Below are positions 7,797 to 32,382 of a stretch of 36,938 bases of DNA, one piece after another. Both the position numbers and the translations under genes were made by a program. The notes beneath the pieces were generated by a model. That model was given only the letters and a program-made list of their open reading frames with translations, did not search any database and was not told the DNA's origin. Every line of letters starts with the position of its first letter. The stretch's first letter is position 1. Source of the DNA: a virus; the IMG/VR virus record IMGVR_UViG_3300021368_002365, positions 1-36,938 of that record. The stretch is one strand, 5' to 3'.

Positions 7797-7802
7797 TGCC
7801 AC

Positions 7803-7860
7803 TGTGCCACCTGTAGAAGTGGCACAATAAATGAGCATAGACCTCAAAATGGTCTATACT
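7803..7860 (+). promoter_or_regulatory. IR24-promoter cassette 7
   Basis: TGTGCCA (7803-7809) and TGGCACA (7820-7826) flank CCTGTAGAAG. TGAGCA (7832-7837), 17 bp and TATACT (7855-7860) follow. The centre is 40.5 bp before the -10. The spacer palindrome AGACC (7839-7843) with GGTCT (7851-7855) and the leader are near copies of cassette 4, although the downstream genes are unrelated. Confidence 0.8.
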
Positions 7861-7866
7861 GTATAG

Positions 7867-7884
7867 GTGGTTGAGAGAGACCAC
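7867..7884 (+). promoter_or_regulatory. predicted 5'-terminal mRNA hairpin (twin of 4725-4742)
   Basis: GTGGTT (7867-7872), GAGAGA loop, GACCAC (7879-7884). The predicted transcription start of promoter 7, seven bases after the -10, falls at 7867, the first base of the stem. The last pair is U-G here and C-G in the twin, so pairing is kept although the sequence changed. Confidence 0.6.
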
Positions 7885-7911
7885 ACTTTTGTTCTTTACT
7901 CCTTCTCTTCA

Positions 7912-8088
7912 ATGACTACAGCACAACGAATGGAACGTCAATTCTTTATTCGATTCATCACACTTGTCAATGATGTGCAAGGATATACTCAACTGCCTTC
8001 TGAGATTAATTCTTCGCGGAAGTCAAGTTGGATGAAACAGGTAAAGAATCCAAAGATGAAGAAAGATGCACTGTCTTCCGTGAAATAA
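7912..8088 (+). CDS. small basic hypothetical protein (58 aa)
   Basis: ATG 7912 is preferred over an in-frame GTG at 7867 that coincides with the predicted transcription start. The 58-aa product is basic (net positive, ending KQVKNPKMKKDALSSVK) with an N-terminal helix MTTAQRMERQFFIRFITLV. A nucleic-acid-binding role would fit the charge but is not shown. It is the last short gene of the accessory region and ends one base inside a hairpin (8087-8131) that opens the non-coding region. Confidence 0.65.
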   Translation: MTTAQRMERQFFIRFITLVNDVQGYTQLPSEINSSRKSSWMKQVKNPKMKKDALSSVK

Positions 8089-8131
8089 TGGTATAATTGT
8101 TAACATATTAAAAATATGTTAAAAAACCATT
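8087..8131 (+). repeat. nested AT-rich hairpin at the start of the non-coding region
   Basis: TTAACATATT (8100-8109) and AATATGTTAA (8113-8122) form a perfect 10-bp stem with a 3-base loop. AATGGT (8087-8092) and ACCATT (8126-8131) form an outer stem. It begins in the stop codon of the last short gene. The lack of G-C pairs in the inner stem makes it a poor terminator, and it could equally be an operator. Confidence 0.6.
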
Positions 8132-8230
8132 TAATCTGTTCTTATTGTGTATCTAATGTCTCTTAATGTCTCCACTTATTGTAGTCTTGGCCTGCATTAT
8201 ATCACAAAAACTTCGTGGTGTCAAGAGAAC

Positions 8231-8254
8231 TGGGACACCTGACAAAGTGGCACA
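8231..8254 (+). repeat. decayed copy of the IR24 element
   Basis: This 24-base stretch keeps ACACCTG and AGTGGCACA at the positions of the intact copies, but the left arm has become TGGGACA and the loop has changed, so the stem is lost. No promoter lies at the usual distance. It suggests that an eighth cassette once ended the array. Confidence 0.6.
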
Positions 8255-8260
8255 CTGGGA

Positions 8261-8323
8261 GTTTTCCACAACCCTGTGGAAAACTATTTTTCCACAAGTA
8301 ATTAATAGTTTTCCACAGGGTTG
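8261..8323 (+). other. cluster of four TTTTCCACA (DnaA-box-like) sites within inverted repeats; candidate origin
   Basis: TTTTCCACA occurs at 8262-8270, 8288-8296 and 8309-8317 on the + strand and at 8275-8283 on the - strand. GTTTTCCACA (8261-8270) and TGTGGAAAAC (8275-8284) form a 10-bp stem with loop ACCC. A second, 20-bp perfect inverted repeat joins 8269-8288 to 8304-8323. TTTTCCACA is the DnaA box form reported for cyanobacteria (E. coli: TTATCCACA). An alternative reading is an intrinsic terminator, since CTATTTTT follows the first stem. Confidence 0.6.
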
Positions 8324-8349
8324 ACATTAACTCACAAATGCACTATGAT
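8321..8349 (+). promoter_or_regulatory. consensus sigma70 promoter firing into non-coding DNA
   Basis: TTGACA (8321-8326), 17 bp, TATGAT (8344-8349). The -35 hexamer overlaps the last three bases of the 20-bp inverted repeat, so a protein on the TTTTCCACA boxes would compete with polymerase. No ORF of useful size follows for about 640 bp, so the transcript would be non-coding or a long leader of the gene at 8994. Confidence 0.7.
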
Positions 8350-8386
8350 ATTAGGTGAGATAGCAGTTGTTATATACCACCCCCCC

Positions 8387-8739
8387 TATTCGTGCATTTG
8401 GAAGTATGATATTACATAGCAGTTCGTATTCGTTATGCGTCCTCTAAGGTGTATAGAATCGTCTACAATCGTATTGAGAGGTTATTCGAGTATAGTTCGT
8501 GGTTTAATTCTTATTACGTCTTGTGGAGGGTTATAGAATGTCGTTGTAAATATTCGATTTACTCGTAGTTTATATTCGTGTGAGTTATATAATTATAATT
8601 AATCTGTCGTGGTATATTATAAACAATACAACTTACAGATCTGTCTATTAGTTTACTATCATCGTATATGTAATACTAATAGACAGTGAGTTTAGTATTC
8701 GTTATACCTGCAATATTATTGTTAATAATTAGTATTCGT
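8387..8739 (+). repeat. seven same-strand TATTCG words
   Basis: TATTCGT occurs at 8387, 8427, 8573, 8696 and 8733, and TATTCGA at 8483 and 8551. I found no copy on the opposite strand in this interval. From base composition, about 0.1-0.2 copies would be expected in 353 bp. Spacing is irregular (22 to 123 bp). Related words GTTCGT and ACTCGT lie between them. This resembles a set of binding sites on DNA or a repeated RNA motif. Confidence 0.6.
8641..8686 (+). repeat. long hairpin in the non-coding region
   Basis: CTGTCTATTAGT (8641-8652) and ACTAATAGACAG (8675-8686) pair perfectly over 12 bp. TTAC (8653-8656) and GTAA (8670-8673) extend the stem past a one-base bulge, and TAT with ATA can add three more pairs. 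No T run follows, so it is not a standard terminator. It is the most stable element of the putative transcript. Confidence 0.7.
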
Positions 8740-8938
8740 TCATAGGCAGTTATACCGGGGGTTATGTGTTAATTATTATCGGTAATGCGATATAAAAAAG
8801 GCAAACAACCCTAACCTACAACGAACCAAAATCGAGAGAGAGATTTCGAGTTAATAAAAAAAATTTTTCGATAATTTTTTCCGAGAAACCAAAAAAAAAT
8901 CCGTGGTAAAAAACCTGTGAGGAACTTGATTGACAAGG

Positions 8939-8946
8939 AATAAATA
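8939..8946 (+). promoter_or_regulatory. T4-type late promoter motif AATAAATA
   Basis: AATAAATA lies 48 bases before the glycosyltransferase-like gene at the junction of the non-coding region and the late genes. It fits NATAAATA. The position is sensible, though the motif alone is weak evidence in AT-rich DNA. Confidence 0.45.
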
Positions 8947-8993
8947 ATCGAGTATCATTGAGTTGGTACGATATAACCTAATTATTACTTAAG

Positions 8994-9764
8994 ATGGCAA
9001 AAGGATTTAAAGTTAAGGCGACAGCACCTACAAAGGCATCCGAAGGGGAAACAGGGGATAGTCTATTTGATATCGAAGAATGTAAGGAGAGAATCAGAGG
9101 GAAGACGATTGTATTCTGCCTTCCAGGCAGGGGCGTTTCGTATCGCTATCTGAAGAGTTTCGTACAGTTGTGTTTCGATTTAGTTCAGGCAGGAGCAAGC
9201 ATTCAGATCAGTCAGGACTATTCAAGTATGGTCAACTTTGCTCGATGCAAATGCCTAGGGGCAAATGTACTGAGAGGACCGGACCAACTTCCTTGGGATG
9301 GAAAGTTGACGTACGACTATCAGTTATGGATTGACTCAGACATTGTTTTCAACACCGACGCATTTTGGGCAGTGTTTGCAATGGACAAGGATATTGCTTG
9401 CGGATGGTATGCAACAGAAGACGGAAGGACTACAAGTGTCGCGCATTGGCTTGAGGAGGATGACTTCAAGAACAATGGGGGAGTAATGAACCACGAGATG
9501 GTAGATACCATTGGTCAGCGTAAGAAGCCATTTACAGTTGACTATACAGGATTTGGTTGGACACTGATCAAGAAGGGCGTATTTGAGCACTCTGAGATGA
9601 AGTACCCTTGGTTTGCCCCACAGATGCAAGTCTTCGACTCTGGAGAGGTTCAGGATATGTGTGGAGAGGACGTTTCGTTCTGTCTCGATGCTAAGAAGGC
9701 TGGATTTGAGATCTGGTGCCATCCACAGGTCAGAGTTGGTCACGAAAAAACCCGAGTCATTTGA
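8994..9764 (+). CDS. glycosyltransferase-like protein (GT-A fold)
   Basis: The 256-aa protein begins with a basic Thr/Lys segment and then reads KTIVFCLPGRGVSYRYLKSF and QISQDYSSMVNFARC, as in nucleotide-sugar transferases of the GT2-like type. LWIDSDIVF (residues 111-119) supplies the DxD metal-binding motif. The acceptor-side motifs TGFGWTLIKKGVF and GEDVSFCLDAKKAGFEIW, then VGHEK, complete a GT-A pattern. I recall close relatives in T4-like cyanophages. The acceptor (modified DNA, virion protein or host envelope) is unknown. The gene has about 47% GC in sampled lines against roughly 30% in the late genes. It is the first late gene after the non-coding region. Confidence 0.8.
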   Translation: MAKGFKVKATAPTKASEGETGDSLFDIEECKERIRGKTIVFCLPGRGVSYRYLKSFVQLCFDLVQAGASIQISQDYSSMVNFARCKCLGANVLRGPDQLPWDGKLTYDYQLWIDSDIVFNTDAFWAVFAMDKDIACGWYATEDGRTTSVAHWLEEDDFKNNGGVMNHEMVDTIGQRKKPFTVDYTGFGWTLIKKGVFEHSEMKYPWFAPQMQVFDSGEVQDMCGEDVSFCLDAKKAGFEIWCHPQVRVGHEKTRVI

Positions 9765-13486: not shown

Positions 13487-16400
13487 ATGAATCAAGATAA
13501 AAAAGTAATTAAAATTAGTGATGTTGTCGAAAATCAAATTCCAGAATTTATTTTCACAGATAATCCAAATTTTGAAGAATTTTTAAAGCAATATTACATA
13601 TCACAAGAGTTTCAAGGCGGAGTTGTAGATCTTGCTGAGAACTTAATTGATTACAAAAATGCTGATTCATTTGATTCAAGCAATTTAATTACAAAAACAA
13701 CATTATCTTCAGATATTGATCCATTTTCTGAGACTATTAATGTAGAATCCACTACAGGTTGGCCAAAAACTTATGGTCTTTTAAAAATTAATAATGAAAT
13801 TATAACTTATACTGGAATTACTACAAATTCTTTTACTGGTTGTGTGAGAGGATTTAGTGGGATTCAATCTGTTTCCAAAGAAAATGATCCTGAATTCCTT
13901 GTATTCTCACAATCAGAATCAGATTTCCACACTAGTGGAGACTCTGTAGAGAATTTAAGTAATTTATTCTTAATTGAATTTTTCAAAAAGACTAAATCTC
14001 AGTTTATTCCTGGATTCGAAGACCTAAATTTTGATTCTAGAATTGATATTCCTAACTTCATCAGCAAATCTAAAGACTTTTATAGATCTAAAGGTACTGA
14101 TGAATCTTTTGAAATTTTATTTAAAGTTCTTTTTGGTGAAAAAGTAGAAGTAATTAAACCAAAAGACTTTTTATTCACACCTTCAGATGACAAATGGATT
14201 GTAGTTGAAAACTTTATTTGTGATTTAGTTGAAGGAGATCCTTTAAAGATAAGTGGTCAGACTCTGTTCCAAAGTGAAAATGATTCAGGTACTATTTTAG
14301 AAGCTAGTGGATCAATTTATGCCATAAGTTCTTTCAATGTTAGAGAAAATATTTTTTATAAAGTTAGCATATTCTCAGGATTTTCTAACAACTTAAGTCC
14401 AAGAGGATCTATTTTTGGAGAATTTAAAACTACAGCAAAAACATATGTAGTTTCTGATGTTTCCGAAAACAGTAGCACTATTCCGGTAGTATCTACAATT
14501 GGATTTGATCTTAGTGGTAAGTTAGTTATTGGTAGTTCCGAAATAACATATACAGATAAAACTTCTACAGAGTTTTTAAATTGTTCGGGAATAGTAAATT
14601 CTATATCAAATTCTACAGAAATATATTCTGATAACTTTGTATTCTCATATGAAGATGGTGATATAAATTCCATTGTAAAATTAAGAATAGTCAATACAAT
14701 TTCAAATATTGATTCTAGTGACTTAGTATTAATTAATGAGGGTGATCAAATTAATATTAAAGGTTTAGGATCTACTAGAAATAGTATTTTTACAGATTCT
14801 TTAAATTATAATGTACCATCAGTAATTTCAGCAGGAAAGGTTTTCCCTGCTGAAGAAGATTTAGGAGAATTTGAAGAAGGTATTAATATTAATGGTTTTG
14901 TGAAAACAAAGTTTCCACATTATTTAAAAAATGATGATGATGTTGAAATATTCAACTCATCTAGAAATATTAAAATTGCTAATGCTAAAGTTAGTAATGT
15001 TAATACTTCTAGATCTTTTGTAATTAATAATTCATCAGGACTTTCTGAATTTATAAACAATGAAATAAAAATAAGAAGAATTCCTTTTAGATCAAAATCT
15101 TCACTTTATCCCGAAGTTGATAAAAAATTTGCAGTCAATGTTCAGAATTCATATGAAGACACGGATAATTATTACTTAGAGTCTAATGGATTTCCAGATA
15201 ATGATATAAAACCATACAAAAAAGAATATAAATTTACTGTTGAAAATGAAAATGGTCTTTTAAGTATAATAAGTGACTCTAATAATAGATCTGAGCATAT
15301 TTTTCAAAATGGAGATATAGTAAGAGTATCTAATATAGTTGGAGTTTCTACTGTACTATCTAATAATGTTGATTATTATATAAAAAGAATAAATGTATCT
15401 AGTTTAAAATTATCTAGAAGTTTACTTAATGTATTAAAAGAAGATTTTGTAATCCCTGAGGTTGATATTGAATGCACTTTGACATCTAAATCATTATCTG
15501 GAAAGCAATTAACTTCTTCAAAATCATTTAAAAAGATACCAAAAGATATTGACTATACTAGAACTGAAGAAACTACAAAACCAGGATCAATTGGAGTTTT
15601 AGTTAATGGAGTAGAAATTCAAAATTATAAATCTTTAGATAAAATTTATTTTGGCACTTTAGAAAATATATTAGTTTTAAATTCTGGTTCTGGATATGAT
15701 TTATTGAATCCTCCTACTTTTAAAATTGGAATTGGTTCGGAAGTTGATACTGTATCATCAATTATTCCACAATTAGAAGGAAAGGTTGAAAGTATATTTG
15801 TAGATGATCCTGGTTATGATTATGTTGAAACACCAATTGTTACTATAAGTAATGGAAGCAATGAAGAAGTTAAGACTGAAGTTAGAATGAAACTAATTTC
15901 AAGAGAACTTGAATTTAATGCAGGAAACTCTGATGTAGTTGCAACTTTAGACACTGAAGAAAAGTTTATATTTACAGAACCTCATAGATTGATTGTTGGA
16001 GATGGTGTAATATATGATTCTCTTTCAGGCACTAAAATTGGTATTGGAACTGAGTCTAGTGACGGTACACTATTAGATAAATCTGTATACTATGTTTCTT
16101 CTATTGGCGCTGGAACTTCTTTTAGACTAGCTCCAACGGTAAAAGATGCTATAGATGAAACAAACTTGATTAGACTTAGAACTCTTGGAACTGGACTTCA
16201 GAAGTTTACTTCAGTAAAAAAAGTAAAAGTAATAGATTCAGTCAACTTGACTGATATTAATCCCACATTAAGATATAAAAAAATTGTAGCTAAAGCAGAT
16301 GATATTAACAAATTTGACAATATTATCAATATAAAAAATCACGGATTTTTATCCGGAGATGAAATTTCATATTCATTCTCTAATGGTAGTGGTTTAACTA

Positions 16401-19400
16401 ATCTTTCAACATCAGAATTTTATTATATAATTAAAATTGATAATAATAGTTTCAAATTATCATCTACAAAAGATTTAGAAAGTATTGTAGATTTTAATTT
16501 ACCTGACAACGATACAGTTCATCTATTTGAGTATTCTCCAATAAAAGTAAATATTATAGGTTCATTAACTGTATCTGGTATATCTGAAATAGGAACTCCT
16601 GCAGTATTAACTCCAGTAGTAAGAGGATCAATTAATGAAGTATTAATTGAATCTTCTAAAACTGATTATAACACATCTGCTCGTACATTTTTAAATTTTA
16701 ATGTCAATCCACAAATTAAAGTAAATGATGGAAAAGGTGCTTTCTTACAACCAGTTATTGAAAATGGTAGGATAACTAATGTTATAATTCTAAGTCAAGG
16801 TGAAAACTATTTTAACTCATTAGATTTAGAAGTTATTGGTAGTGGTAGTGGAGCAAAACTAAGTCCAGGAATTGTAAATGGTAAAATTACAAGTGTAAAA
16901 ATTGTAAACAAAGGTATTGGATATGATTCAAATACCACAATTAGAATAAAAAATATAGGATCAGGATTTAGTGCAATAGGTGAAATTAAGAATTATACAT
17001 TAAATGAAGTTGCTAGGTATAAAACTTCAATACTAAAAAGAGGGATTATAGTCAATGATGTTTACAGACCACAGAATAACATATATGGAGTATATAATCT
17101 AACCAATACTCTAAAGAATCTTCTAGGTGCAAATAATTCGAACTTACATTCTCCTATAATTGGATGGGCTTACGATGGATGTCCAATTTATGGACCTTTT
17201 GCATTTGAGAACAATGATGGAACTGGTAATATAATTGAAATGACCAGTAGTTATAAAAAATCAAAAATACAAAGAATTACAGATGTTATAGAAGATTTTA
17301 AATTCGTAGAAAATATAGGATCTTTAGATAAGCATAATGGAAGATATTGCATTACACCAGAATATCCAAATGGAGTTTATGCATATTTTGCAACTTCATC
17401 TTTTCCATTCTTCATAGGAGATACATATAAATTCAAACCATTACAAGAAAACTTTGAATTTAATTTTAGTCAAAATTTAGACTTTAATAAATTAGATATA
17501 ATCAAATATACTTTACCATATTATGTTAAAGATCAATTAAAATACTACGATTATTTTGATTACAGACCAAATCCAAAAAAAGAAGAAGCAATTGTACTAA
17601 AAACTTTATCTGGTGATATTGATAATGTCGAAGTAATAGATTCTGGTGAAGGATATTCTATAGGTAGTAAACTGACATTTGACAATGATGGTACAGGTGG
17701 ATTTGGAGCATCAGCAGAGATTACTGAACTTTCTGGAGTTGGAATTACAACAATAAATTCTAATACAAAAACAGTTCAAAATATAACATTTGTTTCAAAT
17801 AATAATATAATTACAGGAATTGCTACAACTGCACACAATTTCAAGGATGATTTCTTTATAAAAATTTCAGGAATTACTGATTCTAATTTTAAATCATTGA
17901 ATGGAGTTAAGCAAATAAATGTAAATGAATTTAAAACAAGTCTAGATGAAAATTTAGATTCTGAATCTAATACTGGAATTGTAACTTCAATTAAAATTAA
18001 AGATTCTATAAAAATTTTTGATATAGATTCAGAAATAAAAATTTCCGATGAAACTTCTACTGTTATTGGTTTTGACTATTTAAACAATAGAGTTAATATT
18101 TTAAGAGAATCTTCTTCTCCATCATCTTCTATTGGTTCTTTAGTTGAGTTAAAACAGAATAAATTTAGTTTTAATGAAAGTAAATCTCTAGATCTTCCAG
18201 AAAAAGATGTATCATATTATTTCAATTCTGATCTTGTTTCATTAGGATCAGATACTTCTGCAGGTGCTGGAAATACTGTTACTCTAGAACCACTTGGAGC
18301 TGGAGTTTCTCAAACGAAATATATTAGGACAGCAGGAATATGGATGCCTAATAATGAATTTAAGTCTGGAGAGTCAGTATCATATTCTAACAATTCAGCA
18401 TTTTCAGATGTTCAAAGTGATCAATCCTTATCTAGTTTTTCAGAATTGTATATTGTAGATTTTGGAAACAGTGTAATTGGATTGACAACTATTCAAAACG
18501 ATTTAAGTGGTTTATTATATTATACTGATAAAGGAACAGGAAGACTTCACAAATTAAATACAAACAGATCTGTAATTTCTGGTCAAGCAATATTTAATGA
18601 AACAGTTGTTTCTACAGCATCTTCTCACGGATTAGATGTTGGAGATGAAGTAAGTTTAAAAGTAATCTCTGGATTAACTACAACTTATACTGCAACTTAC
18701 AATCAATCAGATGCAAAACTTCAAATTGACGGACAAAATAATCCTGAAATAAATGTTTATAGAAATCAAAAAGTTGTATTTGATACTTCAACCGATACAT
18801 TCTTAAGTGGTTCAAACGCTGAATTTAAATTATATACAGATAGTGAATATAAGAATGAATATATTGGAACTGGAACTTCTGGAGTAGAAGTTGTAGTTGG
18901 AGTTGGTTCTTTAACTTTAAATGTTACAGATACAACTTTATCTACTCTTTATTACAATTTTGAATCTGATACTAAAAAAGTTTTTGATGATAAAACTGTT
19001 ACTAACAATAATAGAATCAATATTCTAGAAAGTCTTTATAATGTTACTAGTGGAATAGTAACTAATACAAATCAAACTTTTACAATAAACTTACCATCTT
19101 CTCCAGAGGAAGATAATTACAATTCATCAGATTCTAATAAATTGTCATATACAGTTAAAAAGTCTGATGTTTTAGGTCCTATTTCTAAAATAAAATTAAC
19201 TTCTAAAGGAGTTGATTATAAAAAAATTCCATCTATAAAAAGTATAGAAGGTGATGGAAAATCTGCTGTATTAGTCCCTACAACAAAAAATATTGGAAGA
19301 GTATCAGAGATAGGTCCAATATCAATTAATGTTTGTCCTTCAGATAAAACTTTAGTTCCTGAATCAAATTCATATTCAGTTTTATATTTAAAAAACAACT

Positions 19401-21688
19401 ATGAAGTATCATCAATAGACTTAACTTTCTCTGGAAAAAATTATCTAACTCCTCCTAAAGTAAAACTATTCAATAGTAGTAATAATTCACTTGACGATTC
19501 TTTTAGTGCATTTTGCACTCTAAAAGGAAATACTGTTGATCAAATTTCAATTTTAAATCCTGGAAGTGGATTAAGTAGATTTGGAAATAAAATAGTATTT
19601 ACTGATAATTCTAATGGAGTAAAGATTCTAAGTGCATCTTCTGTTCAAGATACACCATCAAATTTTGTAATAACATTAACTGTTGAAACTCCTTTAGCTG
19701 GATTTACAACTTCAAATCCACCACCATTTAGTATTAATGATGAAATATTTGTTGAAAATCTTGGTACTAATTTTGACTCTTCAGATTATTCTTATAATAC
19801 ATTCAAAGTAATAGGAATAGTTACTAATTTTAGTAGTCAAAATCAAACAACAATAACATATGAAGTTCCAAGAAGTGTTGGAAGTGTAATTTCATATGAT
19901 AAAGCTTTTGTAATTAATGCAAATGATCTTCCAAAAGCAAATGTCTTACTTACTCAAAGTTCATTTATTGCTGGAGAAGAAATTAATAGCGAAAAGACTA
20001 TATCAAACAAAAAAGATAGTTTAACAAAAAATATTGTAAAGATTGAAGATTTAAAATCAATAAAAGTTGGTAATAAAATAAAAGGTAATTTAAGTTCTTC
20101 TGAAGGTGAAGTTGTTAAGATTGATAATTACAATTCAAAATTTAATATTGATAATAGTGCTTCTGAGATATTTGGATGGAAAGAATCTAAAGGTAAACCT
20201 TCTTCAAATGAGCAAACTTTATCAGATAATGATTACTATCAAAATTTTTCATATTCTTTGAGGAGTAAGTTACAACTTTCTGATTGGAATTCTCAAGTTT
20301 CAGATTTAAATCATATTTCTGGATTTAAAAAGTTTAGTGATTTGCAGATAGAATCCGAATTTAATTCATCTGTAGTAGAATCCACTGCTTCTTCTGATGT
20401 AAATTTATCAATAAATTCTTTTGGAGATATAACAACAAAAAATAACTTTGATCTAGTTTTAGAACTAGATATTGAAGATAATAATAATCAGTTCTCAGAA
20501 CTATTGAAGTTTAAATCTAGAAAACTTTCAGATTTTCTACTTTCAGAAGAAAATAGAGTTTTGCCAATAGATAATATATCATCAAATTTCAACAATCAAG
20601 CTAGATTTGCTGAAATTGTTGTGGATACTTTACCAACAATTAATACTGGAGGTATTGTTGCAAAATATTTTGTTTTCATAGAATCTACAACCTCATTGTT
20701 TACAGATTTTGAGCTTCCTACATTGGCAGAAGTTTTTATAACTAAAAAAAGTAATAGTTTAGATGATGATACTGTAAGTGCAATTTCATATTCATATTTT
20801 GAAGATATTGACTTAGGTACATTTACTGCTACAATAAATCCTCAAAACCAAAATGAAATTTTCTTGAAGTTTGTACCAAGAAATATTAATAATATTTTAT
20901 CTGCTAGAACTATAGTAGATTTTATTCCTTTAAATGTAACTACAGAAACTGTATCATATGGTAATGTAAATAGTTTAGCAACTACTACATCATTTTCTGC
21001 AGAAAGTTCCCCAACTCAAAAGGAAGTTATATTATCTTCATTATCTGAGTGTCAATCTGGAACAGTTTATGTAGGAATTTCTTCATCTTCTGGTGTAATT
21101 CAAGAATTTAAAGAACTTGGATTTAGATATGACGGTACAAATGTTGCATTTTCCGTATATGCCGAAAGTAGAACATCAGATTTAGGCGATATTGCAGTAT
21201 CTACTAGTGGTACTGATTTAGTTCTTACATATGATGGAGTTCCTAATGTAGGTGTAACTTTATACGTTGACACAATTTTACTTGTAGAAACTGAAACTTC
21301 TCCAAATGAAATACAAAGCGACTTTGGATTGATACGTAGTGAATCATTACAATTTTCAGGAAGTAGTCAGATAGGTATAGCAACTGTTGGAGAAGAATAC
21401 GCAGTTTCAAATTTTATAATTGAAGTTGAAAAGACTGTTGGGAGTACAACAACAAGATCTCTCGCTCAATTAAATGCAGTTCATTATAATGTAAATTTAC
21501 CAACTAATAAATATTTGGCAAATATTACTTATAATGTTGTTGGAAATTTTGATGATTTAGATTTTGATCTAACTTTTGATCCAGGTTCAAATAATTACAC
21601 TCTTTCTTACATTCCTTTTGAAAATGCGGCTTTTGATGTAAAGTTATCTCAAAAAAGTATATTAAGATCCACAAATCCATTATTGTAA
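13487..21688 (+). CDS. giant baseplate/tail-appendage protein with gp7-like N-terminus and YHYH domain
   Basis: A 2733-aa virion protein in the position of T4 gene 7. The N-terminal 240 residues include NPNFEEFLKQYY, then SKSKDFYRSKGTDESFEILF and KVLFGEKVEVI (about 190-222), which by memory matches a segment in the last third of T4 gp7 with the same order of motifs. A YHYH-type domain lies at about 1185-1318 (IIGWAYDGCPIYGPFAFEN, later LDKHNGRYCITPEY and GVYAYFAT), with the name-giving motif degraded. Most of the rest is beta-rich repeats of two kinds: GxGY modules (as GSGYDLLNPPTF) and H-x-F/L-x-x-GD modules (as KNHGFLSGDEISY). No signal peptide or chaperone domain is seen. It probably forms the wedge base and a long peripheral fibre or spike. 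Confidence 0.8.
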   Translation: MNQDKKVIKISDVVENQIPEFIFTDNPNFEEFLKQYYISQEFQGGVVDLAENLIDYKNADSFDSSNLITKTTLSSDIDPFSETINVESTTGWPKTYGLLKINNEIITYTGITTNSFTGCVRGFSGIQSVSKENDPEFLVFSQSESDFHTSGDSVENLSNLFLIEFFKKTKSQFIPGFEDLNFDSRIDIPNFISKSKDFYRSKGTDESFEILFKVLFGEKVEVIKPKDFLFTPSDDKWIVVENFICDLVEGDPLKISGQTLFQSENDSGTILEASGSIYAISSFNVRENIFYKVSIFSGFSNNLSPRGSIFGEFKTTAKTYVVSDVSENSSTIPVVSTIGFDLSGKLVIGSSEITYTDKTSTEFLNCSGIVNSISNSTEIYSDNFVFSYEDGDINSIVKLRIVNTISNIDSSDLVLINEGDQINIKGLGSTRNSIFTDSLNYNVPSVISAGKVFPAEEDLGEFEEGININGFVKTKFPHYLKNDDDVEIFNSSRNIKIANAKVSNVNTSRSFVINNSSGLSEFINNEIKIRRIPFRSKSSLYPEVDKKFAVNVQNSYEDTDNYYLESNGFPDNDIKPYKKEYKFTVENENGLLSIISDSNNRSEHIFQNGDIVRVSNIVGVSTVLSNNVDYYIKRINVSSLKLSRSLLNVLKEDFVIPEVDIECTLTSKSLSGKQLTSSKSFKKIPKDIDYTRTEETTKPGSIGVLVNGVEIQNYKSLDKIYFGTLENILVLNSGSGYDLLNPPTFKIGIGSEVDTVSSIIPQLEGKVESIFVDDPGYDYVETPIVTISNGSNEEVKTEVRMKLISRELEFNAGNSDVVATLDTEEKFIFTEPHRLIVGDGVIYDSLSGTKIGIGTESSDGTLLDKSVYYVSSIGAGTSFRLAPTVKDAIDETNLIRLRTLGTGLQKFTSVKKVKVIDSVNLTDINPTLRYKKIVAKADDINKFDNIINIKNHGFLSGDEISYSFSNGSGLTNLSTSEFYYIIKIDNNSFKLSSTKDLESIVDFNLPDNDTVHLFEYSPIKVNIIGSLTVSGISEIGTPAVLTPVVRGSINEVLIESSKTDYNTSARTFLNFNVNPQIKVNDGKGAFLQPVIENGRITNVIILSQGENYFNSLDLEVIGSGSGAKLSPGIVNGKITSVKIVNKGIGYDSNTTIRIKNIGSGFSAIGEIKNYTLNEVARYKTSILKRGIIVNDVYRPQNNIYGVYNLTNTLKNLLGANNSNLHSPIIGWAYDGCPIYGPFAFENNDGTGNIIEMTSSYKKSKIQRITDVIEDFKFVENIGSLDKHNGRYCITPEYPNGVYAYFATSSFPFFIGDTYKFKPLQENFEFNFSQNLDFNKLDIIKYTLPYYVKDQLKYYDYFDYRPNPKKEEAIVLKTLSGDIDNVEVIDSGEGYSIGSKLTFDNDGTGGFGASAEITELSGVGITTINSNTKTVQNITFVSNNNIITGIATTAHNFKDDFFIKISGITDSNFKSLNGVKQINVNEFKTSLDENLDSESNTGIVTSIKIKDSIKIFDIDSEIKISDETSTVIGFDYLNNRVNILRESSSPSSSIGSLVELKQNKFSFNESKSLDLPEKDVSYYFNSDLVSLGSDTSAGAGNTVTLEPLGAGVSQTKYIRTAGIWMPNNEFKSGESVSYSNNSAFSDVQSDQSLSSFSELYIVDFGNSVIGLTTIQNDLSGLLYYTDKGTGRLHKLNTNRSVISGQAIFNETVVSTASSHGLDVGDEVSLKVISGLTTTYTATYNQSDAKLQIDGQNNPEINVYRNQKVVFDTSTDTFLSGSNAEFKLYTDSEYKNEYIGTGTSGVEVVVGVGSLTLNVTDTTLSTLYYNFESDTKKVFDDKTVTNNNRINILESLYNVTSGIVTNTNQTFTINLPSSPEEDNYNSSDSNKLSYTVKKSDVLGPISKIKLTSKGVDYKKIPSIKSIEGDGKSAVLVPTTKNIGRVSEIGPISINVCPSDKTLVPESNSYSVLYLKNNYEVSSIDLTFSGKNYLTPPKVKLFNSSNNSLDDSFSAFCTLKGNTVDQISILNPGSGLSRFGNKIVFTDNSNGVKILSASSVQDTPSNFVITLTVETPLAGFTTSNPPPFSINDEIFVENLGTNFDSSDYSYNTFKVIGIVTNFSSQNQTTITYEVPRSVGSVISYDKAFVINANDLPKANVLLTQSSFIAGEEINSEKTISNKKDSLTKNIVKIEDLKSIKVGNKIKGNLSSSEGEVVKIDNYNSKFNIDNSASEIFGWKESKGKPSSNEQTLSDNDYYQNFSYSLRSKLQLSDWNSQVSDLNHISGFKKFSDLQIESEFNSSVVESTASSDVNLSINSFGDITTKNNFDLVLELDIEDNNNQFSELLKFKSRKLSDFLLSEENRVLPIDNISSNFNNQARFAEIVVDTLPTINTGGIVAKYFVFIESTTSLFTDFELPTLAEVFITKKSNSLDDDTVSAISYSYFEDIDLGTFTATINPQNQNEIFLKFVPRNINNILSARTIVDFIPLNVTTETVSYGNVNSLATTTSFSAESSPTQKEVILSSLSECQSGTVYVGISSSSGVIQEFKELGFRYDGTNVAFSVYAESRTSDLGDIAVSTSGTDLVLTYDGVPNVGVTLYVDTILLVETETSPNEIQSDFGLIRSESLQFSGSSQIGIATVGEEYAVSNFIIEVEKTVGSTTTRSLAQLNAVHYNVNLPTNKYLANITYNVVGNFDDLDFDLTFDPGSNNYTLSYIPFENAAFDVKLSQKSILRSTNPLL

Positions 21689-26019: not shown

Positions 26020-29000
26020 ATGTCACAAAGCACAAATTTAAATGTCAATCCATATTATGACGATTTTGATTCCCAGAAAAACTACTATAAAGTACTTTTT
26101 AAACCTGGAGTAACAGTTCAGGCTAGAGAACTTACAACTCTACAGTCGATTTTACAAGATCAAATTGAAAAGTTTGGTAGTAGTTTTTATGCAAATGGTG
26201 GTATTGTAATTCCAGGAAACTTTGCTTATGACGGAACTTTTACTTGTGTTGAAGTAGAATCTACGTACAAAGGAGTTGATGTAGAAACATATTTTAATTC
26301 TTTAATTGGAAAAATTGTAAAAGGTAAAAATACAGGAATTACTGCAAAAATAGAAAGTGTTTTATCTAGAAATAATTCTATAAGAGATACAACAACTTTA
26401 TATGTTAAGTATCAAAATTCTTCCTCAGAGGACTTTTCTACAGAAATTTTTGAAAATGGTGAGGAATTATCAGTAACTTCTGATGTATCAATAGGAAGTA
26501 CTTTAATTGAATCTGGACAGGATGTTTTTAGAGTAATTTCTCCACTTGATAGAAGTGCTTGTTCTGTTGGTTCTTCTGCAAAAATTGAGTCTGGAGTTTA
26601 CTTTGTAAGGGGATTCTTCGTAGATATAGACTCAGACTTAATTATACTTGATCAATATACTAATACTCCTTCATATAGAGTTGGATTAAAGATAACTGAA
26701 AGTATTGTAGATGCTAATGATGATTCTTCACTATTTGATAATGCTCAAGGATTTTCAAATTTTGCTGCACCAGGGGCAGATAGATTTAAAATATCATTAA
26801 CTTTAACTAAAAAGGAAACTGATGACTTCATTGATAATGATTTTATCGAACTATTTAAAGTTGAAAATGGTATAGTTAAAAAGATCAGGCAAAATGATCA
26901 ATTCTCATTTATAAATGAAATTTTAGCAAGAAGAACTTTTGATGAATCTGGAAATTATTATGTTTCTCCTTTTGCAGTAGAATCTTTTGAATCTTTAAAT
27001 GATAGATTGGGAAATCAAGGATTATATTTAAGTAATGAGAAAACTCCTGATGGATCTACTCCGTCAGATGACTTAGCGGTATTGAAAGTATCTCCAGGAA
27101 AAGCTTATGTAAAGGGATTTGAAATATCAACTTCAGATGAGATTTTAGATTTACCAAAACCAAGAATTACTAAAGAAGTAGAATCTTCATCTAGTAATTT
27201 TTATGCTGCTAATTTAATTAAAGTTAATAATGTTCAAAGTTTACCTAAAATAGGTCTAACTACTGATTTTACAGTATCTCTTTATGATACTAGATTGGAT
27301 GGTTCTGCTTCAGTTTCAGCAGGAACTACAATTGGACTTGCAAAAATATATGATTTTGAATCTGACAATACTTCTTATGTAGATGCATCAAGTCAATCTA
27401 ACTTGTACCTATTTGACATTCAGACATACACAAACTTGACTTTGAGTAGTTCGGTAAGTGCAGGAATGGGAGAGTATATTCAGGGACAATATAGCAACGC
27501 CTCAGGATATGTTCAATCTGGTTCTGGTGGTAATTTATCTTTATATCAAGTTTCTGGTGAATTTGTAGATAATGAACCTTTAATAATTTCAGGTATTTCT
27601 ACAAATACAACTATTACTGACATTGAAGATTACTCTATACAAGATGTAAAATCTGTTGGATTTGATAGTGATTTTGCTGCAGATACACTATTATCTAAAG
27701 AATTACTAGTTGATGGACCATTTGATTTTCAATCATCAGCAGGAGTTGCTACAATTACTAGATTTGATGGGAGTTCATTTGCTACTGGATTTAAAGTTAA
27801 TGATATTGTAAAATATTCCAGAACTGGTGGATCTGACGAACCAAGGTTTGCTAGAATTACTAGCATCAATTCTTCTTTAACTGGAATTGGAGTTACTGAT
27901 GTAGCTAATGTTGCAAATGTTTGTACTGGAGATATTGAAACCACTACAACTCTACAAACTATTAAAATAATTAGACCAGAAGTTCTAAACTTTGAGGATT
28001 CTTCATTATATTCAAGACTCAATAATACTAATATTTCAGAAATTAGTTTCTTAAATTCCAGTATTTTTATTAAGAAGTACTATGATGGTCAAACTATTTC
28101 TGGCAGTTCTATTACACTTCCATCTCTACTCAATACAGATTTTGTCTATGCAGCTTTTGACGAGGAGAGATATAGTCTAGTAGACGACTCTGGTAATGGT
28201 GTAAATTTATCTTCTGCAACATTTAATATTACAAATGGTGGAAAAGATGCAGAATTTACAGGATTAAGCGTAGCAACTGGTTCTTCAGTAAAAATAATAA
28301 CTACTCAAATTAAATCAAATGTTTCACAAAAATTCAAAAAATTACAAAAAGCACAATCAATTGTACTAAACAGAACAAAATACAGTCCCACTAGAAATGG
28401 GGGGTTAACTAATTCTACTGTATATGGAACTAGAGTTGAAGATAATGAAATAAGTTTAAATTATGCAGATGTAGTTGAAGTTTATGGAGTATATCAATCT
28501 TCAACCACATCAGATCCAGAATTACCTTCTATTACATTTTCTGGTGCAAATTCTAGTAATATGAAACTAGGAGAAGTTTTAATAGGAAAAACTTCTGGTG
28601 CTGTTGCAGTTTATGTAGAGCAAAACTCAAATAGTAAAATTTCTTTCGTTTATAAGTCAAACAATAAGTTTATTGTAAATGAATTTGTTGAATTTCAAGA
28701 GTCTTCGCAAACTGCAACAGTATTAACTGTAAATGAAGGTGAAGAAAATATAATTTCAGACTTTATCTTAGATAACGGTCAAAGAAAGCAGTTTTATGAT
28801 TTTGGCAGGTTAGTAAGAAAAGAATCTACAAAAGAGCCTTCTTCTAGATTGAAAATTGTATTTGATTATTTTAAGTTTGAATCAACAGATTCTGGAGACT
28901 TAGTTGGAGCAAATAGTTATCAAGAATTTTTAGATAAAGATAAAATTCCATTCTTTAATGGTTTGAGAAATTCTGACTCAATTGATATTAGACCAAGAGT

Positions 29001-32000
29001 ATCTGATTACAGTACTGCATCGTCTATGAGTCCATTTGATTTTAAATCAAGGTCTTTCGATACTAGTTCAAATAACTCTACACAAGTGCTTTCTTCCAAT
29101 GAATCTATAGTTTTTGATTATAGTTTCTATTTACCTAGAATTGATAAACTAACTTTAGATAAAAATGGTAAATTTGATTTGGTATTTGGTGAATCTAGTG
29201 AAACACCATTTAAACCACAAATATCAGAAGAAGTACTAGATGTTGCAACAATTTTAAGTTCTGCTTATGTTTATGATGTAAACAGAGATATTGATATTGT
29301 ATTAACTGACAATAAAAGATTTACTTTTTCTGATATAAGAGATATTGAAAAGAGAGTTGATAATCTTGAATTGTCAAGTACATTATCTCTTCTTGAAGTT
29401 GACACTAAAAATCTTTTAATTCAAGATTCTGAAGGTTTCAATAGATTCAAGTCTGGATTTTTTGTAGATGATTTCCAAAATTTTGATACTTCAGATGTTG
29501 AATCACCAATTTTCAAAGCAAATATTAGTAATGGATCTTTAAAGTCTGAAGTAAATAAAAACAGAATTACACTTAAGTTAGATTCAAATACTAATACTCA
29601 AATAACTGGGCATACACTGACATTAAGTTATACTGAGAATGATTATCAAAAACAACCATTTGCAAGTAGAATTGTAAATGTAAATCCATTTAATATTGTA
29701 ACTTGGACTGGAAAACTTGAATTAAATCCATCTAATGATAGTTGGACCATAGAAGTTTCTTCTTCTGAAAGAGTTGGTAGTGCTACAAGAGGGGGTGAAA
29801 CAGAGGTTATTAGATCTTCTAGATCTGTAGAATTCATTAGATCTAGAAATATAGAGTTCATTGGAACTAGATTAAAACCTTCTACTGAGTTTAGTTTGAT
29901 ATTTGACTCTAGAAATCTCTCATCAAATTTAGCAGGAACTACTTATGCATTCCCCAAATTACTACAAATAACAAATGTAGTTGGAACATTTAATGTTGGC
30001 GAGACTGTTAATGGATTTGATAATAATGGAAATAGAATCTCATTTAGAACTTGTACAGCAAATCATAAGACTGGAGTATTCAACAATCCAGATTCAACTT
30101 ATAATATTAATCCTTATGATCCAACTGTACAACTTCCTTCAAGTTATGGTCCACAGTCTACAGTATTGAATGTTGATACATCATCATTACAAATTTCAAA
30201 CGAATCTTCTTTCTTTGGAAATGCTACTTCTGGTATGAGATTGTTTGGAACAGAAAGTGGAGCAATAGCAACAATATCTGCATTAAAACTAGTATCAGAT
30301 GATAACGGAACTTTAATAGGAAGTGTATTTATTCCTGATCCAGATTCAAGTTCATTGAAATTTAGAACTGGTAATGCTTCTGTGAAGTTAACTACATCTA
30401 CTGCAGGTTTAGGAGTTCCAGGAGAATTTACCAGCACTGCAGAAACTGTCTTTAATACTTCAGGAACTAGAATAGAGATTAGGACTGTTACTTATTATGA
30501 TCCTCTAGCACAGACATTCATTGTAGATGAACCTGAAGGGATTTTCCCAACTTCTATTGATGTTTTCTTTGCTACTAAAGACGATACAATACCAGTTACA
30601 CTTCAGATTAGAGAAGTTATAAACGGTATTCCAGGTGGTCCCGATAAGATTGTTGGAAGTTTAGAAAAGATTTTAAATCCAAATGAAGTTAAAGTTAGTA
30701 ACGATTCTTCGGTAGCAACAAACTTCAAGTTTGATAATCTAACTAGATTAGAAGGAGGTAGAGAATATGCTATTGTTCTTATTTCTGATTCAAGCGACTA
30801 TCAAGTTTGGATTTCTAGAGTAGGGGAAATTGAAATTTCTACACAATCATTCACTGAAGCTCAGAAGGTTTTAATCAGTAAGCAACCATCTTTAGGATCT
30901 TTATTTAAATCCCAAAATGGAACTACTTGGATTCCAACTCCAGAAGATGATCTTAAATTTACAATTAAGAATGCTAAATTTAATACTACAGGAGGAACTT
31001 CAACATTCTTCAATAGTGAAGTTAATGCAAGATCAAATGAAAATAAACTTGCTCCAAATTCAATCTTCTCAATATCAACAGATGCCTCAGAATTCAATAA
31101 TGGAAGATATATTCTAGTTTTCCATCCAAATCACGGAATGTATTCATCAACTAATAAAGTTGTTATTGAGGGAGTTAAATCAGATATTCTTCCAGAAAAA
31201 TTAACAATTGGGTATGGTATTACATCTTCTGGTGCAATAGACGTATCAGATTCTACAATATTCCAACAATTTGAAGGATCTACAGTTAGTAATTCTGATG
31301 CTTATATTGAGATTAATGGTGAGATTATAAAATATGAAAATGTTTCTGGAAATCAATTAACTGATATTACAAGAGGTCAATTTGGAACTAAACAATTAGA
31401 TCATCCAGTAAATTCTTTAGTACGTAAGTATGAATTTAACAATGTTTCTTTGGCAGGAATAAATACGGAACACGATGTAATTAGTCCAACAATAGATTCT
31501 TACTATGTACAAGTAGAAGCTGGAAAACAATTCAGCGAAAGTAAATTTGGTGGTGGTGATAAAATATTTGCCTCAAGAAATAAGCAATTTAGTAAATTAG
31601 AATTTGAGAATAATTTTGTTAGAAAATTTGAATCCACTTCTGTAGATTCTTCTATTAGAACAGTAAGTTCTACTAGTGTAGATGGAACAGAAGTATCATT
31701 TAAAGATAAAGGATTTGAATCTGTCGGTATTAATAGTACAAATACATTTACAGATCCAAGAATGGTTTGCTCTAGAGTTAATGAAACTACATCATTAAAT
31801 TCCAATCAATTCAAGGATAATAAGTCATTCACTTTACAATTAACATTATCAACTGATAATGAAGACTTATCTCCTGTAATAAATTTGAATAATTCAAATT
31901 TAATTGTAGAAAATAATAGAATAAATCAACCAATTAGCACAAATTCTTATCCTGTAGACGGTAGAGTTAATTCAAATGTTGATGATCCAAATGCTTTAAT

Positions 32001-32382
32001 TTATGTTTCTAATAGGATTGAATTGGCGCAAAGTGCATCTTCAATAAAGGTTTTACTTTCAGCATTCAGATCACAATTTTCTGATATTAGAGTTCTTTAT
32101 AAGATTTTTAGGGACGATACTCCAGATGAAAGTCAAGTTTGGCAATTATTCCCAGGATATTTTAATCTTGATGTAAATAATCAAATTGTTGATCCTTCTA
32201 AAAATGATGGAAGATCTGACAAATTAGTTCCTTCTAGTTTTGAAAATGAATATCGTGAATATTCATTCACTATTGATGATGTACCACAATTTACATCATT
32301 TGCTATAAAAATTATTGGAACAAGTACAAATCAAGCATACACACCAATTATAGAAGATCTAAGAGTTATTGCATTAAAATGA
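26020..32382 (+). CDS. giant DUF4815-type virion protein (2120 aa), wedge or fibre component
   Basis: The N-terminus (NVNPYYDDFDSQKNYYKVLF, KPGVTVQARELTTLQ, QDQIEKFGSSFY) matches the DUF4815 family seen in virion proteins of T4-like marine phages. Residues 330-400 (DDLAVLKVSPGKAYVKGFEI) continue this head. The middle is a series of beta-rich and Ser/Asn-rich segments. Around 1480-1660 a conserved module YDPLAQTFIVDEPEGIFPTS, then GGREYAIVLISDSSDYQVWI is present, typical of phage fibre proteins with a lectin-like fold. The C-terminus ends FAIKIIGTSTNQAYTPIIED. It fills the place of T4 genes 9-12 and wac between genes 8 and 13. The next gene overlaps its stop by four bases. Confidence 0.8.
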   Translation: MSQSTNLNVNPYYDDFDSQKNYYKVLFKPGVTVQARELTTLQSILQDQIEKFGSSFYANGGIVIPGNFAYDGTFTCVEVESTYKGVDVETYFNSLIGKIVKGKNTGITAKIESVLSRNNSIRDTTTLYVKYQNSSSEDFSTEIFENGEELSVTSDVSIGSTLIESGQDVFRVISPLDRSACSVGSSAKIESGVYFVRGFFVDIDSDLIILDQYTNTPSYRVGLKITESIVDANDDSSLFDNAQGFSNFAAPGADRFKISLTLTKKETDDFIDNDFIELFKVENGIVKKIRQNDQFSFINEILARRTFDESGNYYVSPFAVESFESLNDRLGNQGLYLSNEKTPDGSTPSDDLAVLKVSPGKAYVKGFEISTSDEILDLPKPRITKEVESSSSNFYAANLIKVNNVQSLPKIGLTTDFTVSLYDTRLDGSASVSAGTTIGLAKIYDFESDNTSYVDASSQSNLYLFDIQTYTNLTLSSSVSAGMGEYIQGQYSNASGYVQSGSGGNLSLYQVSGEFVDNEPLIISGISTNTTITDIEDYSIQDVKSVGFDSDFAADTLLSKELLVDGPFDFQSSAGVATITRFDGSSFATGFKVNDIVKYSRTGGSDEPRFARITSINSSLTGIGVTDVANVANVCTGDIETTTTLQTIKIIRPEVLNFEDSSLYSRLNNTNISEISFLNSSIFIKKYYDGQTISGSSITLPSLLNTDFVYAAFDEERYSLVDDSGNGVNLSSATFNITNGGKDAEFTGLSVATGSSVKIITTQIKSNVSQKFKKLQKAQSIVLNRTKYSPTRNGGLTNSTVYGTRVEDNEISLNYADVVEVYGVYQSSTTSDPELPSITFSGANSSNMKLGEVLIGKTSGAVAVYVEQNSNSKISFVYKSNNKFIVNEFVEFQESSQTATVLTVNEGEENIISDFILDNGQRKQFYDFGRLVRKESTKEPSSRLKIVFDYFKFESTDSGDLVGANSYQEFLDKDKIPFFNGLRNSDSIDIRPRVSDYSTASSMSPFDFKSRSFDTSSNNSTQVLSSNESIVFDYSFYLPRIDKLTLDKNGKFDLVFGESSETPFKPQISEEVLDVATILSSAYVYDVNRDIDIVLTDNKRFTFSDIRDIEKRVDNLELSSTLSLLEVDTKNLLIQDSEGFNRFKSGFFVDDFQNFDTSDVESPIFKANISNGSLKSEVNKNRITLKLDSNTNTQITGHTLTLSYTENDYQKQPFASRIVNVNPFNIVTWTGKLELNPSNDSWTIEVSSSERVGSATRGGETEVIRSSRSVEFIRSRNIEFIGTRLKPSTEFSLIFDSRNLSSNLAGTTYAFPKLLQITNVVGTFNVGETVNGFDNNGNRISFRTCTANHKTGVFNNPDSTYNINPYDPTVQLPSSYGPQSTVLNVDTSSLQISNESSFFGNATSGMRLFGTESGAIATISALKLVSDDNGTLIGSVFIPDPDSSSLKFRTGNASVKLTTSTAGLGVPGEFTSTAETVFNTSGTRIEIRTVTYYDPLAQTFIVDEPEGIFPTSIDVFFATKDDTIPVTLQIREVINGIPGGPDKIVGSLEKILNPNEVKVSNDSSVATNFKFDNLTRLEGGREYAIVLISDSSDYQVWISRVGEIEISTQSFTEAQKVLISKQPSLGSLFKSQNGTTWIPTPEDDLKFTIKNAKFNTTGGTSTFFNSEVNARSNENKLAPNSIFSISTDASEFNNGRYILVFHPNHGMYSSTNKVVIEGVKSDILPEKLTIGYGITSSGAIDVSDSTIFQQFEGSTVSNSDAYIEINGEIIKYENVSGNQLTDITRGQFGTKQLDHPVNSLVRKYEFNNVSLAGINTEHDVISPTIDSYYVQVEAGKQFSESKFGGGDKIFASRNKQFSKLEFENNFVRKFESTSVDSSIRTVSSTSVDGTEVSFKDKGFESVGINSTNTFTDPRMVCSRVNETTSLNSNQFKDNKSFTLQLTLSTDNEDLSPVINLNNSNLIVENNRINQPISTNSYPVDGRVNSNVDDPNALIYVSNRIELAQSASSIKVLLSAFRSQFSDIRVLYKIFRDDTPDESQVWQLFPGYFNLDVNNQIVDPSKNDGRSDKLVPSSFENEYREYSFTIDDVPQFTSFAIKIIGTSTNQAYTPIIEDLRVIALK

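Follow-up and report, generated by a model that had tools for sequence, protein, structure and literature searches.

Do T4-like phages of cyanobacteria have a use for the DnaA protein of their hosts? T4-type phages are not known to depend on host DnaA, and the T4-like ones bring replication proteins of their own. The question is raised by a compact array of exact DnaA boxes in an IMG/VR fragment of an uncultivated T4-like cyanophage (36,938 bases; this whole stretch, as analysed, is here called the window). The gp8 of the window has its best relatives in Synechococcus phages.

The box array and its surroundings

The array sits in a non-coding gap of ~900 bp (about 8089-8993), with small accessory ORFs on one side and the late module (phrog_1574, gp25, gp6) on the other, which agrees with the border of accessory and late modules named in a preliminary description of this DNA. 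The T4-type structural module beyond the gap comprises phrog_1574, gp25, gp6, gp8, connector and head-closure proteins, a tail-sheath stabiliser and the small terminase. Giant ORFs of 2733 and 2120 aa (13487-21688 and 26020-32382) lie either side of the gp8 region, and tRNA-Thr is the only Rfam family found in the window. The features of the locus are as follows.

8097-8125: AT-rich palindrome (82% AT), beyond the minus-strand promoter as seen from the boxes
8196-8224, minus strand: sigma-70-type promoter, TTGACA-17-TATAAT (12/12), kept in 10/10 near copies
8262-8270, plus strand: DnaA box 1, TTTTCCACA, exact match
8275-8283, minus strand: DnaA box 2, exact match, inverted, pairs with box 1 as a hairpin
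8288-8296, plus strand: DnaA box 3, exact match
8309-8317, plus strand: DnaA box 4, exact match, upstream of the plus-strand promoter with three bases between it and the -35
8269-8288 and 8304-8323: 20-bp perfect inverted repeat
8321-8349, plus strand: promoter, TTGACA-17-TATGAT (11/12), kept in 10/10 near copies
8810-8820, plus strand: CCTAACCTACA, a non-coding element conserved in Kyanoviridae, mostly in a single copy, used as an independent locus marker
8856-8868: A/T tract AAAAAAAATTTTT, past CCTAACCTACA by an almost constant distance
8994-9764, plus strand: phrog_1574 gene (function not assigned), the syntenic anchor, with its own promoter at 8930-8958

An exact-match search returned the four boxes of the preliminary description, three on one strand and one on the other, between 8262 and 8317. 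They had been called cyanobacterial in type, and TTTTCCACA is indeed the published cyanobacterial DnaA box (PMC4674748). Its density is far above chance: across the whole window 0.77 copies would be expected, no further exact copy occurs elsewhere in the 36,938 bases, and none of 300 order-2 Markov simulations of the window placed two copies within 63 bp. The array therefore has what marks a cyanobacterial DnaA-box cluster, namely several exact copies of TTTTCCACA within ~100 bp, above chance. The reported hairpin is real, although it measures 11 bp (8260-8270 / 8275-8285) and not 10 bp, and the 20-bp perfect inverted repeat was found again, arising incidentally from boxes 2 and 4 together with their matching flanks. 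The consensus promoter said to adjoin the cluster is likewise present (8321-8349), while the minus strand has a perfect promoter (8224 to 8196) that had been overlooked; with this second promoter, the boxes sit between divergent promoters. The A/T tract is possibly easily opened DNA, and the palindrome is probably part of the locus, judging from relatives that have at this place a second box pair beside AT-rich sequence.

The minus-strand promoter faces a region (7834-8196) that is closed by a terminator-like hairpin (7860-7834) and holds no minus-strand ORF of at least 60 aa, and a candidate small RNA of ~350 nt may arise there. A hairpin ACTGTGCCAC...GTGGCACA occurs at 7801-7857 and is partially repeated 428 bp downstream (8229-8254), next to the boxes. 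Intergenic DNA of S-SKS1 and S-T4 matches the first copy at ~85% identity.

Recurrence of the array at one locus

A search for the same cluster in related phages, suggested in the preliminary description, was strongly positive. Scanning 2.9 million viral contigs blindly for the pattern box, inverted box, box yielded 101 loci, and common proteins joined 94 of these into one T4-like cyanophage group that includes the genes of the window (single linkage at 35% identity was used, so a few of the 94 links may be indirect). The phrog_1574 gene is present in 51 of the loci, always with the array upstream of it, within 3 kb in 43 of them. Relatives were also retrieved by a second route, through the phrog_1574 protein, and ten of the closest bear arrays. 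These near copies, one of which (L104) is almost identical to the window, all show the same layout: minus-strand promoter, boxes, plus-strand promoter, CCTAACCTACA and A/T tract. More widely, outward promoters stand beside 39 of 78 distinct arrays and inward ones beside 18 of 78, against a baseline of 10% for a random 200-bp piece. The array is also found in cultured Synechococcus and Prochlorococcus phages, and its locus recurs in P-TIM68, S-RIM8, S-RIM12, P-SSM7, ACG-2014b and ACG-2014d. Exact boxes number four to eight per locus, and the spacings from box to box cluster at 11-13, 19 and 21-24 bp.

The array is not required by the family as a whole, since an exact box cluster was absent from 9 of 12 cyanophages sampled through gp8 regardless of boxes. 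It was absent also from all four T4-like phages of other hosts. With many related phages lacking boxes, the feature is lineage-specific. An apparent lack of boxes in more distant relatives (L121-L183) was set aside as partly an artefact of 4-kb flanks; the L127 locus, for example, is boxless, yet the same contig bears a cluster ~6 kb upstream (L006). In S-PM2, three exact boxes within 34 bp (19231-19264; L307 3005-3038) lie on annotated tRNA-Asn and tRNA-Leu genes, away from the usual array locus.

Retrieval by CCTAACCTACA ties the array to the locus more strongly than any other evidence. This 11-mer is exact in 12 of 21 cyanophages tested, usually once per genome, and lies no more than ~1.1 kb from the boxes in 7 of 8 box-bearing genomes having both (~2.6 kb in S-RIM32). 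A scan for CCTAACCTACA plus A/T tract, which takes no account of boxes, fetched 113 non-redundant loci, of which 32 hold at least two exact boxes within -1.5/+1 kb; for 200 permuted 9-mers at the CCTAACCTACA loci the mean was 0.07 and the maximum 2. Unsupervised word enrichment at these loci placed box words among the most enriched, the 8-mer GTGGAAAA being seen 114 times against 1.5 expected. No variant boxes replacing the exact ones were found at boxless CCTAACCTACA loci. The element and the A/T tract lie on the gp8 strand (8810-8868 in the window, 3157 in L302, 42031 in S-RIM8, 46552 in P-SSM7), and do so in boxless phages as well.

The comparison with relatives also bears on whether the array is no more than a plain hairpin or intrinsic terminator belonging to the upstream operon, an alternative that the preliminary description had raised. 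In the window ATTTTT follows the hairpin (8260-8285), an arrangement that is scored as a terminator and whose RNA folds well. The T run, however, belongs to box 3, and hairpin plus T run are not conserved among the relatives, many of which keep their boxes in orientations and spacings that form no terminator. One such array folds no better than shuffles, and the sequence is invariant, with no compensatory change. This reading is contradicted by the relatives, and we consider it very improbable.

Host DnaA as the likely ligand

In their flanks as well as in the 9-mer, the boxes agree with the published DnaA box of cyanobacteria, which makes host DnaA the likely ligand. The preferred context of the phage boxes is G-TTTTCCACA-G(G), and a G before and G(G) after are found also at box clusters of two cyanobacterial genomes. 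Purified domain IV of Cyanothece DnaA binds such boxes cooperatively in vitro, better when two perfect boxes are 2 nt apart (PMC4674748). DnaA is encoded in all 28 picocyanobacterial genomes examined, where its box-recognition signature, if the pattern matched, reads GGKDHTTVMYA or something close to it. Since the phage boxes equal the published one, binding of host DnaA to the phage array is likely, and the conserved position, invariant sequence and helix-like spacing suggest specific protein binding.

The 9-mer might instead be read by another host or phage protein, its likeness to the DnaA box being convergence. Three observations point this way: the boxes at picocyanobacterial oriC are degenerate, the opposed box pair of the phages is absent from 28 host genomes, and box presence has no obvious association with host strain. 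Against this, both the exact 9-mer and its flanks equal those of cyanobacterial DnaA-box clusters, and host DnaA retains its recognition signature; we regard such convergence as quite improbable.

The resemblance to host origins is partial. Like cyanobacterial oriC adjacent to dnaN (Cyanothece 51142, S. elongatus 7942, Anabaena 7120), the phage locus has the TTTTCCACA 9-mer with its preferred flanks and clusters of boxes facing both ways, some of them 2 nt apart. Unlike it, the locus is virus-borne, has no dnaN, and lies between divergent promoters beside CCTAACCTACA. At picocyanobacterial oriC (dnaN-adjacent; L352-L377) the boxes are mostly one-mismatch versions at repeated positions, whereas those of the phages are exact and denser. 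The DnaA-trio (described in PMC8287927), which occurs as TACTACTAC at most picocyanobacterial oriC examined, was found in none of 120 phage clusters. The earlier idea of a mimic of the host oriC is not supported, given the missing trio and the exactness of the phage boxes; a faithful oriC copy likewise lacks support, there being neither a DnaA-trio nor a switch in GC skew. In three picocyanobacterial chromosomes (L380, L381 and L382, at 1501-1520) a common exact DnaA box pair with a 2-nt gap lies near neither dnaN nor dnaA. Another exact box is ~290 bp off, and this pair is possibly a datA-like site of the host.

Candidate roles: origin, promoter control or titration

Such arrays suggest that the phages use, sense or sequester host DnaA. 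We rank a replication origin first, followed by a promoter switch, a DnaA sink, another binding protein and a terminator. On the identity, density, position and conservation of the boxes, and their association with promoters and with CCTAACCTACA, we base the hypothesis that the DnaA array between divergent promoters is a transcription-assisted origin; it is the leading reading, tentative and a little short of an even chance. Soon after infection, host RNA polymerase would fire from both outward-facing promoters, and host DnaA would bind the exact, helix-phased boxes and oligomerise. DnaA, together with negative supercoiling between the divergent transcripts, would then open DNA in the locus, and one of the first replication rounds of the phage would start there before its own T4-type machinery continues.

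The preliminary description, in which a replication origin was one of three readings, is supported in part. Box cluster, divergent promoters and AT-rich neighbourhood fit an origin, while no skew switch was seen and an R-loop leader is not general. Cumulative GC skew in four complete relatives runs in one direction throughout, and neither GC nor TA skew switches at the boxes, a weak test given that T4-type replication is recombination-driven. An R-loop leader does not appear to be a general feature: the leader is G-rich in the clade of the window and C-rich in other clades, no conserved G-rich leader or RNA structure extends across clades, and downstream of the plus-strand promoter no base pairs of a conserved RNA were predicted. 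In T4 itself, oriF and oriG are transcript-primed origins, for which no use of DnaA boxes is known. Like them, the phage locus combines a strong promoter with AT-rich non-coding sequence within a T4-type genome; it differs in having DnaA boxes and no general R-loop signature. Host DnaA boxes in the control region of a mobile element are familiar from plasmid origins and oriR of phage P1, which employ a Rep protein with iterons; here, in a lytic T4-like phage, no iterons or Rep gene were seen.

The promoter context would suit a promoter switch just as well, in which DnaA sitting between the divergent promoters would turn early phage transcripts up or down, so that the phage could sense the replication or growth state of the host. 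The boxes are flanked by outward promoters and spaced in a helix-like manner, box 4 in the window ends just three bases before a -35, and the minus-strand promoter with its start region is kept along with the boxes. However, near-consensus promoters should need no activator, no obvious gene lies behind the minus-strand promoter, and arrays of up to 8 boxes are larger than the usual operator. We consider a switch unlikely, if still a serious candidate.

A third reading is that the consensus boxes of multiplying phage genomes sequester host DnaA and halt new rounds of host chromosome replication, as a sink comparable to the titration locus datA of E. coli. Both have dense consensus DnaA boxes away from oriC, at comparable density, and datA titrates strongly with just two consensus and four one-misfit boxes (PMC5835720). 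The four to eight exact boxes per phage locus, set against the mostly degenerate boxes of picocyanobacterial oriC, and the missing DnaA-trio are in keeping with titration. The phage array differs from datA in being viral, in its divergent-promoter region and conserved place, and in having no known IHF requirement. Fixed position, promoter context and the link to CCTAACCTACA would be unneeded for a sink, yet all are conserved; this placement argues against a simple sink, which appears improbable, if likewise a serious candidate.

DnaA-box clusters as such are well known; what appears to be new is that they recur in lytic T4-like phages at a single locus. Our literature search, with subscription papers outside it, found no work that treats DnaA boxes in cyanophages or links their replication to DnaA, and none mapping the replication starts of T4-like cyanophages. 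In sunlit water T4-like cyanophages belong to the most abundant viruses, and the array-bearing ones are many, from ocean and lake cyanobacteria. It is conceivable, though more doubtful than probable, that this lytic family has a conserved DnaA-dependent replication-control locus with CCTAACCTACA and the A/T tract as its core, its timing tied to the cyanobacterial cell cycle, and that some lineages have lost or replaced the dependence. Phages with and without boxes offer a natural comparison, and cultured pairs of phage and host would allow the question to be tested directly. Should host DnaA act at the locus, the array would offer, for many phages, a concrete candidate for an origin or a control switch, and phage replication would be linked at the molecular level to the light-driven cell cycle of the host.
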